Shown: positions 6,548-58,646 of the stretch, piece after piece | Position numbering within the stretch: the first letter of the stretch is position 1 | How the letters are laid out: every line of letters begins with the position of its first letter | From: Longibaculum muris | GTDB lineage: Bacteria > Bacillota_I > Bacilli_A > Erysipelotrichales > Coprobacillaceae | Direction: 5' to 3' | Assembly: GCF_004343035.1 (NCBI RefSeq) | Contig: NZ_SMCQ01000015.1 | Span: 1-64,000, forward strand | DNA: 64,000 nt | Translations under genes and position numbers: made by a program | The notes under the pieces: generated by a model | What the model saw: the letters and a program-made list of their open reading frames with translations, nothing else | Told to the model about the DNA's origin: nothing | Database searches by the model: none

Positions 6548-6621
6548 TGGAGCGGATGATGGGAATCGAACCCACGTAGTCAGCTTGGAAGGCTGAAGTT
6601 CTACCATTGAACTACATCCGC
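6548..6621 (-). tRNA. tRNA-Gly (UCC), copy 3
   Basis: A 74-nt cloverleaf on the minus strand with acceptor GCGGATG/CATCCGC, anticodon loop with TCC, T-loop GGTTCGATTCC and an encoded CCA end (6548-6550). Last gene of an eight-tRNA operon; its body matches the copy at 6739. Confidence 0.97.
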
Positions 6622-6642
6622 ATAAGAAATATAAAATTTTAA

Positions 6643-6716
6643 TGGAGCGGGTGATGGGAATCGAACCCACGTAGTCAGCTTGGAAGGCTGAAGTTCTACC
6701 ATTGAACTACACCCGC
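6643..6716 (-). tRNA. tRNA-Gly (UCC), copy 2
   Basis: Same as its neighbours except for a paired change in the acceptor stem (GCGGGTG/CACCCGC), which keeps pairing. Anticodon TCC, CCA encoded. Confidence 0.97.
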
Positions 6717-6738
6717 ATAGGGAATATAAAATCTTAAA

Positions 6739-6812
6739 TGGAGCGGATGATGGGAATCGAACCCACGTAGTCAGCTTGGAAGGCTGAAGTTCTACCATTG
6801 AACTACATCCGC
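6739..6812 (-). tRNA. tRNA-Gly (UCC), copy 1
   Basis: A 74-nt cloverleaf with anticodon TCC, acceptor GCGGATG/CATCCGC and encoded CCA. First of three tandem Gly genes about 95-96 bp apart. Confidence 0.97.
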
Positions 6813-6821
6813 ATATTAAGA

Positions 6822-6897
6822 TGGTGACCCGCAGGCGACTCGAACGCCTGACCCTCTGATTAAAAGTCAGATGCTCTACCGACTGAGCTAGCGGGTC
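6822..6897 (-). tRNA. tRNA-Lys (UUU)
   Basis: A 76-nt minus-strand cloverleaf with acceptor GACCCGC/GCGGGTC, anticodon TTT in loop CTTTTAA and encoded CCA. Confidence 0.97.
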
Positions 6898-6904
6898 AAA
6901 TAAT

Positions 6905-6980
6905 TGGCTGGGATACCTGGATTCGAACCAGGGAAATGACAGAGTCAAAGTCTGTTGCCTTACCGCTTGGCTATATCCCA
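6905..6980 (-). tRNA. tRNA-Gln (UUG)
   Basis: A 76-nt minus-strand cloverleaf with acceptor TGGGATA/TATCCCA, anticodon TTG in loop CTTTGAC and encoded CCA. The U1-A72 start is typical of bacterial tRNA-Gln. Confidence 0.97.
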
Positions 6981-6986
6981 ACAAGA

Positions 6987-7070
6987 TGGTGGGGAGGGGC
7001 GGATTCGAACCACCGAACCGAAAGGAACTGAGTTACAGTCAGCCGCGTTTAGCCACTTCGCTACCTCCCC
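6987..7070 (-). tRNA. tRNA-Tyr (GUA)
   Basis: An 84-nt class II tRNA with a long variable arm, anticodon GTA in loop CTGTAAC, acceptor GGGGAGG/CCTCCCC and encoded CCA. Confidence 0.97.
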
Positions 7071-7077
7071 ATCAATA

Positions 7078-7153
<76 letters not shown>

Positions 7154-7155
7154 AA

Positions 7156-7231
7156 TGGTGGAGGTTAACGGGCTCGAACCGCTGACCCTCTGCTTGTAAG
7201 GCAGATGCTCTCCCAACTGAGCTAAACCTCC
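7156..7231 (-). tRNA. tRNA-Val (UAC)
   Basis: A 76-nt cloverleaf with acceptor GGAGGTT/AACCTCC, anticodon TAC in loop CTTACAA and encoded CCA. First gene of the tRNA operon, with the promoter just upstream. Confidence 0.97.
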
Positions 7232-9743: not shown

Positions 9744-9804
9744 GAAAAATTTGAGAAAAAAACAATGAAAAATGTGTTATAATCATAGTATGTGAAAATA
9801 TCTC

Positions 9805-9833
9805 TTGATTTATAGATATGATTAGCATATAAT
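9805..9833 (+). promoter_or_regulatory. Promoter upstream of the 41-aa ORF and metK leader
   Basis: TTGATT (9805-9810) and TATAAT (9828-9833) are 17 nt apart. A second, extended -10 (TGTTATAAT, ending 9783) lies just upstream. No promoter was seen between the 41-aa ORF and the riboswitch. Confidence 0.65.
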
Positions 9834-9896
9834 GAACAAAGTCTTGATTTGTAGAATAATGTCTGACGATTAGGTTAAACTAAGAGTGGTGATATT

Positions 9897-10022
9897 ATGA
9901 ATACAAGAAAGCAGGAGCAGTTAAAAATAGCTGCCATTCTTTATGACTTAGGAATAGATATGGAACTTATTGAAGCCATGACATCCTTAAGCCGTGAAGA
10001 TCTAACAAAATTATATCAATAA
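9897..10022 (+). CDS. 41-aa small protein upstream of the metK riboswitch
   Basis: The ORF (begins MNTRKQEQLKIAAILYDLG, ends LTKLYQ) is preceded by GTGGTGAT about 5 nt before the ATG and ends seven bases before the SAM-I aptamer. The peptide is predicted helical with alternating hydrophobic residues (helix 1 to ~18, helix 2 from ~21), like a small helix-turn-helix. No Met-rich or Cys-rich run suggests a classic leader peptide. Sitting between the only visible promoter and the riboswitch, it probably shares the metK transcript. I do not recognise it. Confidence 0.55.
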   Translation: MNTRKQEQLKIAAILYDLGIDMELIEAMTSLSREDLTKLYQ

Positions 10023-10028
10023 TAGAAG

Positions 10029-10158
10029 CTCTTATTCAGAACCACGAGATGAGGATCGATGAAGTGGTGGCAACCCTTAGAAAAGAAGGTGCCTTTACCT
10101 AGCAAGTTTACTTGAACAATAAGAGGAAAGAAAAGCTTTCCTCTTGAAAGCTTTTTTT
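10029..10158 (+). promoter_or_regulatory. SAM-I (S-box) riboswitch with attenuator, controlling metK
   Basis: P1 is CTCTTATT (10029-10036) with AATAAGAG (10118-10125). Conserved aptamer parts include GATGA, GGCAACC and AAGGTGC. The antiterminator AAGAGGAAAG/CTTTCCTCTT (10121-10130 with 10136-10145) and the terminator AAAAGCTTTC/GAAAGCTTTT (10131-10140 with 10146-10155, then T-run) exclude each other. High SAM favours P1 and termination, switching metK off. Confidence 0.93.
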
Positions 10159-10183
10159 ATTGAAATGCGGGAGGAAAGAAAAA

Positions 10184-11326
10184 ATGGAAAAGATTTTATT
10201 TACATCTGAATCAGTTTCAGAAGGACATCCAGACAAAGTCTGTGATCAAATTAGTGATGCTATCTTGGATGCATGTATTGGACAAGATCCACATTCAAGA
10301 GTGGCTTGTGAGTGTTTCACAACAACAAATTTATTGATGATTGGTGGTGAAATCACAACTAATGCTAAAGTTGATTATGAAAGCATTGCAAGAGATGTTT
10401 TAAGAAAAATTGGTTATACAAGTGATGATTTAGGAATTGATGCCGATCATTGTGAAGTTAAAGTTGTGATGGATACCCAATCAGCTGATATCGCTCTTGG
10501 AACAAATGTTGAAGTTGGTGGAGCAGGAGACCAAGGTATTATGTTTGGTTATGCTTGTAATGAAACAGAAGGATATATGCCTTTACCAGTTTCTATTGCT
10601 CATCATTTGGTACGTTATGCCACAGAAAAAAGACATGCTGGTGAATTTAAATGGGCACGTCCTGATATGAAATCACAAGTGACAGTTGATTATAGTGATC
10701 CTACTCATCCTAAGATTGATACGATCTTAATGTCAATTCAACATGATTCAGATTTTAATGAAACAGAATTTAAAGATTATATTCAAAATGTCATTATGAA
10801 AGAAGTTGTTAAAAAATATGACATGAATACAGATTACAAAGTTTATATTAATCCAACTGGACGTTTTGTAATTGGTGGACCTCATGGTGATACAGGTTTA
10901 ACTGGACGTAAGATTATTGTTGATACATATGGTGGAACAGCTAGACATGGTGGAGGAGCATTCTCAGGAAAAGATCCTTCTAAGGTGGATAGAAGTGCAG
11001 CTTATATGGCAAGATACATGGCTAAGAACATTGTTGCTGCTGGACTTTGTGATAAAATTGAGATTCAATTATCTTATGCAATTGGGGTTAAAGAACCAAC
11101 AAGTGTCTTTATTGAAACATATGGTAGTGAAAAAGTTGATAAAGATGTTATCTTAAAAGCGATTAAAACTGAATTTAATTTAACACCTCAAGGAATTATT
11201 GATACTTTACAATTGCTTCAGCCATTATATTCAAAAACAGCTGTTTATGGACATTTTGGACGTGGTGATTTAAATTTACCTTGGGAAAATTTAGATAAAG
11301 TTGAAGATTTGAAAAAATATTTGTAA
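10184..11326 (+). CDS. metK: S-adenosylmethionine synthetase
   Basis: Makes SAM from methionine and ATP in the cytoplasm. The 380-aa protein has the ATP motif SEGHPDKVCDQISDA near its start, GGAGDQGIMFGYA, and the phosphate loop GGPHGDTGLTGRKI with GGGAFSGKDPSKVD. It ends with the usual FGRGD and PWE. Start ATG 10184 follows GGGAGGAAAG; a longer in-frame start would lie in the terminator. The gene is controlled by the S-box directly upstream, so synthesis falls when SAM is high. Confidence 0.98.
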   Translation: MEKILFTSESVSEGHPDKVCDQISDAILDACIGQDPHSRVACECFTTTNLLMIGGEITTNAKVDYESIARDVLRKIGYTSDDLGIDADHCEVKVVMDTQSADIALGTNVEVGGAGDQGIMFGYACNETEGYMPLPVSIAHHLVRYATEKRHAGEFKWARPDMKSQVTVDYSDPTHPKIDTILMSIQHDSDFNETEFKDYIQNVIMKEVVKKYDMNTDYKVYINPTGRFVIGGPHGDTGLTGRKIIVDTYGGTARHGGGAFSGKDPSKVDRSAAYMARYMAKNIVAAGLCDKIEIQLSYAIGVKEPTSVFIETYGSEKVDKDVILKAIKTEFNLTPQGIIDTLQLLQPLYSKTAVYGHFGRGDLNLPWENLDKVEDLKKYL

Positions 11327-16689: not shown

Positions 16690-16914
16690 ATAAGTAAAAA
16701 TCAATGAAAAGGAATAGTAATTGTCTGTAATCTTTTAGAGAGCTTGTGGCTGGTGGAAACAAGTAGAGGAAGCAATGAACTCGCCTTGGAGATGTAAGGG
16801 TGAATCAAGTAGTCTTTACCGTATCACTGCGTTAAAGTGTTGAGGGCATACAATGATTGTATGAACTAAGGTGGTAACGCGATAAAGTCGTCCTTAGATG
16901 GAGGACTTTTTTTA
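16690..16914 (+). promoter_or_regulatory. T-box leader (tRNA-Leu-sensing) of leuS
   Basis: The conserved T-box AAGGTGGTAACGCG is at 16869-16882. Its UGGU pairs with the ACCA end of uncharged tRNA-Leu. The antiterminator CTAAGG/CCTTAG (16866-16871 with 16892-16897) competes with the terminator AAAGTC...GACTTT (16884-16909). A CTC triplet at 16780-16782 in the stem I region is the likely Leu specifier codon. Confidence 0.92.
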
Positions 16915-58564: not shown

Positions 58565-58646
58565 TGTTGTAGACCTCTAGCTACAACCGCACATAAAAGG
58601 TATTAAAGCTTAGCTGCCTTGGTTGGCGAGTCTGAGAATATTACAA
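58565..58646 (+). ncRNA. L21 leader
   Basis: Structured GC-richer leader between promoter and rplU, with hairpin TTGTAGacctctaGCTACAA and a later stem around TTGGTTGGCGAG. Position and length fit the Firmicutes L21 leader; autoregulation by L21 is presumed. Confidence 0.7.

Follow-up and report, generated by a model that had tools for sequence, protein, structure and literature searches.

Why does a complete small open reading frame stand between the promoter and the SAM-I riboswitch of a metK gene? The question is raised by a locus of Longibaculum muris, in a 64,000-nucleotide stretch of DNA (the window), where an earlier note based on the letters had offered two readings of the frame: a separate small-protein gene, or a leader peptide whose translation affects folding of the aptamer. 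The architecture on which these readings rest is present (Table 1). The ORF is complete from ATG to TAA, encodes the 41-residue product MNTRKQEQLKIAAILYDLGIDMELIEAMTSLSREDLTKLYQ, has a credible ribosome site and lies between the best promoter-like site of the region and a SAM-I aptamer. The distance of seven bases that had been given from the end of the ORF to P1 is right if counted to the first base of P1; six bases intervene between the stop codon and the stem.

Table 1. Features of the small-gene/metK region (window positions)
Feature	Position	Strand	Basis or remark
Promoter-like site, TTGATT-17-TATAAT	9805..9833	+	Top score of region, 10/12
Candidate 5'-UTR hairpin pairing with small-ORF ribosome site and start codon	9856..9898	+	Predicted fold; p 0.33 in this genome alone
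Shine-Dalgarno sequence GGTGA, 4 nt 5' of ATG	9888..9892	+	4-6 nt before start in 24/24 homologues
Small-protein gene, 41 aa, predicted three-helix HTH-like product	9897..10022	+	Conservation, dN/dS, predicted structure
SAM-I riboswitch aptamer (RF00162), between small gene and metK	10029..10125	+	54.3 bits vs gathering score 44.4
Antiterminator hairpin, P1 3' strand in common	10120..10146	+	Hairpin scan, reinterpreted from sequence
Intrinsic terminator (stem 10131-10155) and T run, AAAAGCTTTC-CTCTT-GAAAGCTTTT then T	10131..10158	+	Sequence reading
metK, S-adenosylmethionine synthetase, 380 aa	10184..11326	+	ORF; adjoins small gene in relatives

Conservation and coding capacity of the small ORF

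The length of the ORF is by itself unremarkable, dozens of frames of 25-45 aa surrounding it; it stands above chance because of its conservation, its low dN/dS and the fixed spacing of its Shine-Dalgarno sequence. A search with the peptide among 60 relatives recovered homologues in 24, every one a member of the same family, and a profile search then found one in 30 of the 43 genomes of that family. A second genome collection contained homologues in Stoquefichus, Massilimicrobiota, Faecalibacillus and Thomasclavelia. All homologues from the first search keep the frame open, ten residues are invariant among 23 sequences, and in the 24 homologues the position of the GGTGA is held at 4-6 nt from a start codon that is itself variable (ATG, GTG or TTG). 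Differences over codon positions 1, 2 and 3 within five clades number 2290:1317:4825. The corresponding NG86 dN/dS values are mostly 0.03-0.15, and as high as 0.43 in one clade, with dS near saturation in many pairs and individual values accordingly rough. Judged by these comparisons, the ORF is a protein gene under strong purifying selection. The earlier note had held that a lack of peptide conservation, with dN/dS near 1, would count against it; the relatives show the opposite, and show it beside metK.

Profile searching gave no homologue in the other 13 of the 43 family genomes, and the small protein is thus not essential to metK control. In the family genomes without a detectable homologue, it is mostly nfu that lies next upstream of the metK leader.

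Searches of Pfam, NCBIfam and PDB sequences returned no family above cut-off for the 41-aa protein, and matches to ankyrin, L7/L12 and Wmk were discarded as short or far below cut-off. A role as a Met-codon attenuator, already thought unlikely in the earlier note, was also rejected: there is no run of Met codons, and the three that are scattered among the 41 differ in position among homologues.

Gene order across families

Within the family, SAM-I and metK follow directly on the ORF at every examined locus whose contig reaches far enough, and this includes the most divergent family homologue. In the window the ORF is preceded by its 5' UTR and mscL. Seventeen homologues in a sister family, small ORFs of 32-50 aa, are found away from metK and SAM-I, and all 17 start 39-59 nt past the stop codon of a TSCPD gene (loci L091-L107); one of these TSCPD examples matches TIGR03905 with an E-value of 3e-18, as a fragment. 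A phylum-wide profile search added homologues of 56-91 aa in three further families, f13, f8 and f28. The order TSCPD - small gene - metK is seen in f8, in f28 and in three of the five f13 genomes, and small gene - metK in the remainder. A class-wide search added a fourth family, f26, with the order small gene - SAM-I - metK. In f28 and f26 the gap between the small gene and metK contains SAM-I, no SAM-I match is found at the f13 loci even at an E-value of 0.1, and in f8 (L157:1480-1802) a SAM-I match (36.1 bits, E 8e-5, under the gathering score) shares sequence with the 3' portion of the small gene. In the window genome, the TSCPD gene is on another contig.

These surveys place the small gene with metK where there is no riboswitch (f13), and place it where there is no metK (the sister family). 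The simplest history suggested by gene order would be an old cluster, TSCPD - small protein - metK, of which different lineages have kept different parts. The small ORF is thus a protein gene in its own right, from an old cluster, and the intercistronic position of the riboswitch accounts for the distance between the S-box and the promoter. A separate small protein fits such a gene better than a leader peptide does, and the protein side of that first reading is strongly supported, both by selection at the amino-acid level and by homologues that are away from metK and SAM-I or beside metK without SAM-I. The conservation is explained without the second reading; an effect of translation on the aptamer could still be a secondary one, since the stop codon hugs or invades P1.

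Signals upstream of the small gene and of metK

Most aligned relatives have boxes similar to the -35 and -10 of the promoter-like site in the corresponding position, one genus (g8) being without them. Their presence upstream of the ORF in most relatives counts for a two-gene unit. An internal promoter just before P1 was considered and rejected, the matches there being weak and not conserved.

The aptamer exceeds the curated gathering score of RF00162 by covariance-model score, and at a relaxed threshold Rfam gave nothing credible other than SAM-I in 9780-10200. A simple terminator scan labels the hairpin at 10120-10146 the terminator. Reading of 10118-10158 suggests instead that this hairpin is the antiterminator, into which the P1 3' strand (AATAAGAG) can extend, and that the terminator is the overlapping stem which it excludes. 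The P1 3' strand is common to the aptamer and the antiterminator, as expected for SAM-I, and the expression platform of the metK switch therefore looks canonical. The genome has another metK-like gene (G000:C3:223395-224540), 52% identical to that of the window, whose flanks contain no SAM-I match. Elsewhere in the window there are a T-box leader (16695-16898) and an L21 ribosomal-protein leader (58575-58643), both above their gathering scores, and a cluster of eight tRNA genes on the minus strand (6551-7231), three of which are near-identical neighbouring copies.

In most lineages, folding predictions place the Shine-Dalgarno sequence of the small gene in the paired part of a local hairpin. 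Compared with shuffled 5' ends, its occlusion gives a combined z of 4.2 over 24 genera, which are not independent of one another; 39 ordinary genes of the window, taken as a control, have a mean p of 0.49. The base pairs of the hairpin shift between genera, often with a YACU-like string on the loop side. One possible source of the recurrent hairpin is translational coupling to TSCPD under the ancestral gene order. The hairpin was not accepted as a conserved RNA element, given the shifting pairs and the p-value in the window, and stays a candidate. In a consensus fold of ten sequences of 5' UTR plus ORF, the sole stem lies in the ORF and may be codon-driven.

Junction of the ORF with the aptamer

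The ORF ends beside or within the aptamer across the 32 loci compared: 31 have a stop-to-P1 distance of between -10 and +20 nt, and the f8 locus has one of -61. In the Thomasclavelia-type genomes the stop is inside P1, so that the last codons (GACTCTTATTAA, Asp-Ser-Tyr-stop) themselves form the P1 strand, and in f8 (L157) the small ORF enters the aptamer, the 5' half of which doubles as coding sequence. The last five codons (9996-10022 in the window) show identity at synonymous sites beyond the expectation from codon usage across 12 genomes of the wider group to which the window belongs, most clearly at a Leu codon that is TTA in 12 of 12 against an expected identity of 0.41. The tight spacing and the frozen 3' synonymous sites hint at a role for this sequence as nucleic acid too. 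A ribosome terminating here would mask the P1 5' strand in part or in full, and so favour the antiterminator. The spacing is compatible with such a translation gate; dense packing of genes, or a need for unstructured flanks, would explain it too.

Predicted fold of the small protein

AlphaFold2, supplied with 27 homologues, predicts helices at residues 3-17, 22-29 and 33-40 with a mean pLDDT of 91. The best match among solved structures is RpnA-S (PDB 7th0), at an rmsd of 0.5 A over 34 columns with a Foldseek probability of 1.00, and by VIA at Z 7.0 and 1.1 A over 38 residues with 29% identity. TrpR-like proteins, FlhC and the HTH of a serine recombinase rank closely after it in the structure search. 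With a Foldseek E-value of 0.48, and with Z values of this size often seen among small helical folds, the RpnA-S match speaks for shape and not function. Weak profile matches point the same way: FlhC at E 1e-4, below its cut-off, and the Rpn C-terminus at 0.04-0.08. The FlhC match reaches 22.6 bits against a Pfam cut-off of 27 (PF05280), over only the first quarter of the profile, and 22.5 against 216 in NCBIfam. The long ORFs that the small-protein profile matches in relatives look like Rpn nucleases and are matched at their C-termini. The Rpn nuclease family TIGR01784 has ten matches on several contigs of the window genome (L179-L183), each of them under the curated cut-off.

The model thus describes what is probably a compact three-helix HTH-like module of the shape of RpnS or of the FlhC N-terminus. 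Such a protein is most likely to be a trans-acting helical regulator or adaptor, and most likely a dimeric one that serves partners in the metK/TSCPD pathway, where both the dimerisation and the link to the pathway are what we infer.

A probable two-gene unit and its alternatives

We consider it probable that the ORF is a genuine small-protein gene, a survivor of the TSCPD cluster, and the first of a two-gene unit with metK in which an intercistronic SAM-I switch leaves the product to be made in both SAM states and to act in trans. RNA polymerase would start near 9840, transcribe the small gene and then reach the switch. At high SAM, P1 would keep the strand needed by the antiterminator, the terminator would form and a short mRNA carrying the small gene alone would result; at low SAM, transcription would proceed into metK. 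Abundant SAM should silence metK only, since the switch lies between the genes, and the small protein would be made at high and low SAM alike. Co-transcription with metK, expression in both states and action in trans are thus parts of this reading that we infer.

The position of the stop codon invites a rather unlikely alternative, in which the ribosome finishing the small ORF covers the P1 5' strand, frees the 3' strand for the antiterminator and overrides SAM-dependent termination, so that metK would sense both SAM and translation, while the protein might act in trans too. The stop positions described above, inside P1 in the Thomasclavelia-type genomes and within the aptamer in f8, agree with this, as does the synonymous identity of the last five codons, and interplay between an upstream ORF and a riboswitch is documented in Mycobacterium tuberculosis, where metE and ppe2 provide a worked precedent (PMC11260477). 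Yet the peptide is conserved at the amino-acid level where SAM-I is absent (f2 and f13), so a gate is not the reason that the gene exists, and dense packing would explain the spacing. The ribosome would also be too late where transcription outruns translation, as is established for Bacillus subtilis. The two readings can be combined in a two-input unit, in which translation of the small protein ends on the 5' strand of the aptamer, ribosomes and SAM jointly set metK transcription and the protein acts in trans on MetK or on a TSCPD partner; we regard this as unlikely.

It is distinctly improbable that the two genes are independent units, in which metK would use a promoter of its own near the aptamer, within the last part of the ORF, and would have the small gene as no more than a neighbour. 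S-box leaders do often begin near the aptamer, and the A/T-rich end of the ORF has weak -10-like strings (AATAAT, 10018-10023), but no site in this stretch reaches 9/12, the -10-like string is broken at two loci (L006 and L026) and missing in other genera, and where ORF and P1 overlap there is no promoter between them. Even more doubtful is a stand-alone antitoxin of the RpnS type that would neutralise Rpn nucleases whose genes lie at other places in the genome. RpnA-S is the best structural match, the small-protein profile matches Rpn C-termini in relatives and the genome has ten Rpn-family matches; against this, none of the ten reaches the curated cut-off of the family, the small gene is neither inside nor beside an Rpn gene, its conserved neighbours, TSCPD and metK, being metabolic, and RpnS domains are highly variable (PMC10327210) whereas the small-protein family is not. 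Finally, short ORFs are common in the window and the region folds better than shuffled sequences, as might be expected of a chance ORF in a long untranslated leader, but the protein-type substitution pattern, a frame open in every homologue of the first search and homologues in two gene contexts leave that idea with almost no probability, and it was ruled out by the coding signal.

Significance

The locus is a clear-cut natural example of a riboswitch that separates two genes, and since in some genera the ORF runs into the aptamer, ribosome override of a transcriptional riboswitch is directly testable. The small protein belongs to an uncharacterised family that no Pfam or NCBIfam model matches above its cut-off, and gene order across several Bacilli families ties it to a SAM-making enzyme and an uncharacterised TSCPD protein. 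A literature search on metK upstream ORFs, intercistronic S-boxes and TSCPD function, which mostly did not extend to subscription papers, found no study of this locus.

Comparison with known systems

As a SAM-I (S-box, RF00162) element before metK, the switch is typical in its aptamer score and in its predicted antiterminator/terminator platform. It differs in being intercistronic and preceded by a conserved small-protein gene, and its aptamer begins about 190 nt into the predicted transcript. The TIGR03905 TSCPD gene is a recurrent neighbour, 38-131 nt upstream of the ORF homologues in the sister family, f28, f8 and three f13 genomes; its protein is not homologous to the small ORF.

RpnS proteins are dimeric antitoxins produced from inside rpn genes (PMC10327210). 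The predicted monomer fold matches the three-helix bundle of 7th0, the antitoxin domain of an Rpn nuclease in which helix 1 forms the dimer, superposing at 0.5-1.1 A over 34-38 residues with 29-32% identity, a likeness of fold only. The small gene, in contrast, is not within the 3' end of an rpn gene. It is free-standing, with its own ribosome site, after mscL in the window and after TSCPD in the sister family, and is conserved beside TSCPD and metK instead; by definition, therefore, it is not an RpnS. The N-terminal domain of FlhC (PF05280) is alike in its weak profile match (E 1e-4) and similar predicted fold, but the match is below cut-off, spans the first quarter of FlhC only and is found where the flagellar context is absent.

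The B12 riboswitches of M. tuberculosis metE and ppe2 resemble this locus in having a short ORF, translated there and predicted to be so here, next to or inside the aptamer, which in the case of metE also precedes a one-carbon/methionine gene (PMC11260477). There, the peptides are little conserved (the metE upstream ORF) and control is translational, whereas the small protein of the present locus is conserved from family to family and the metK switch appears to be transcriptional.
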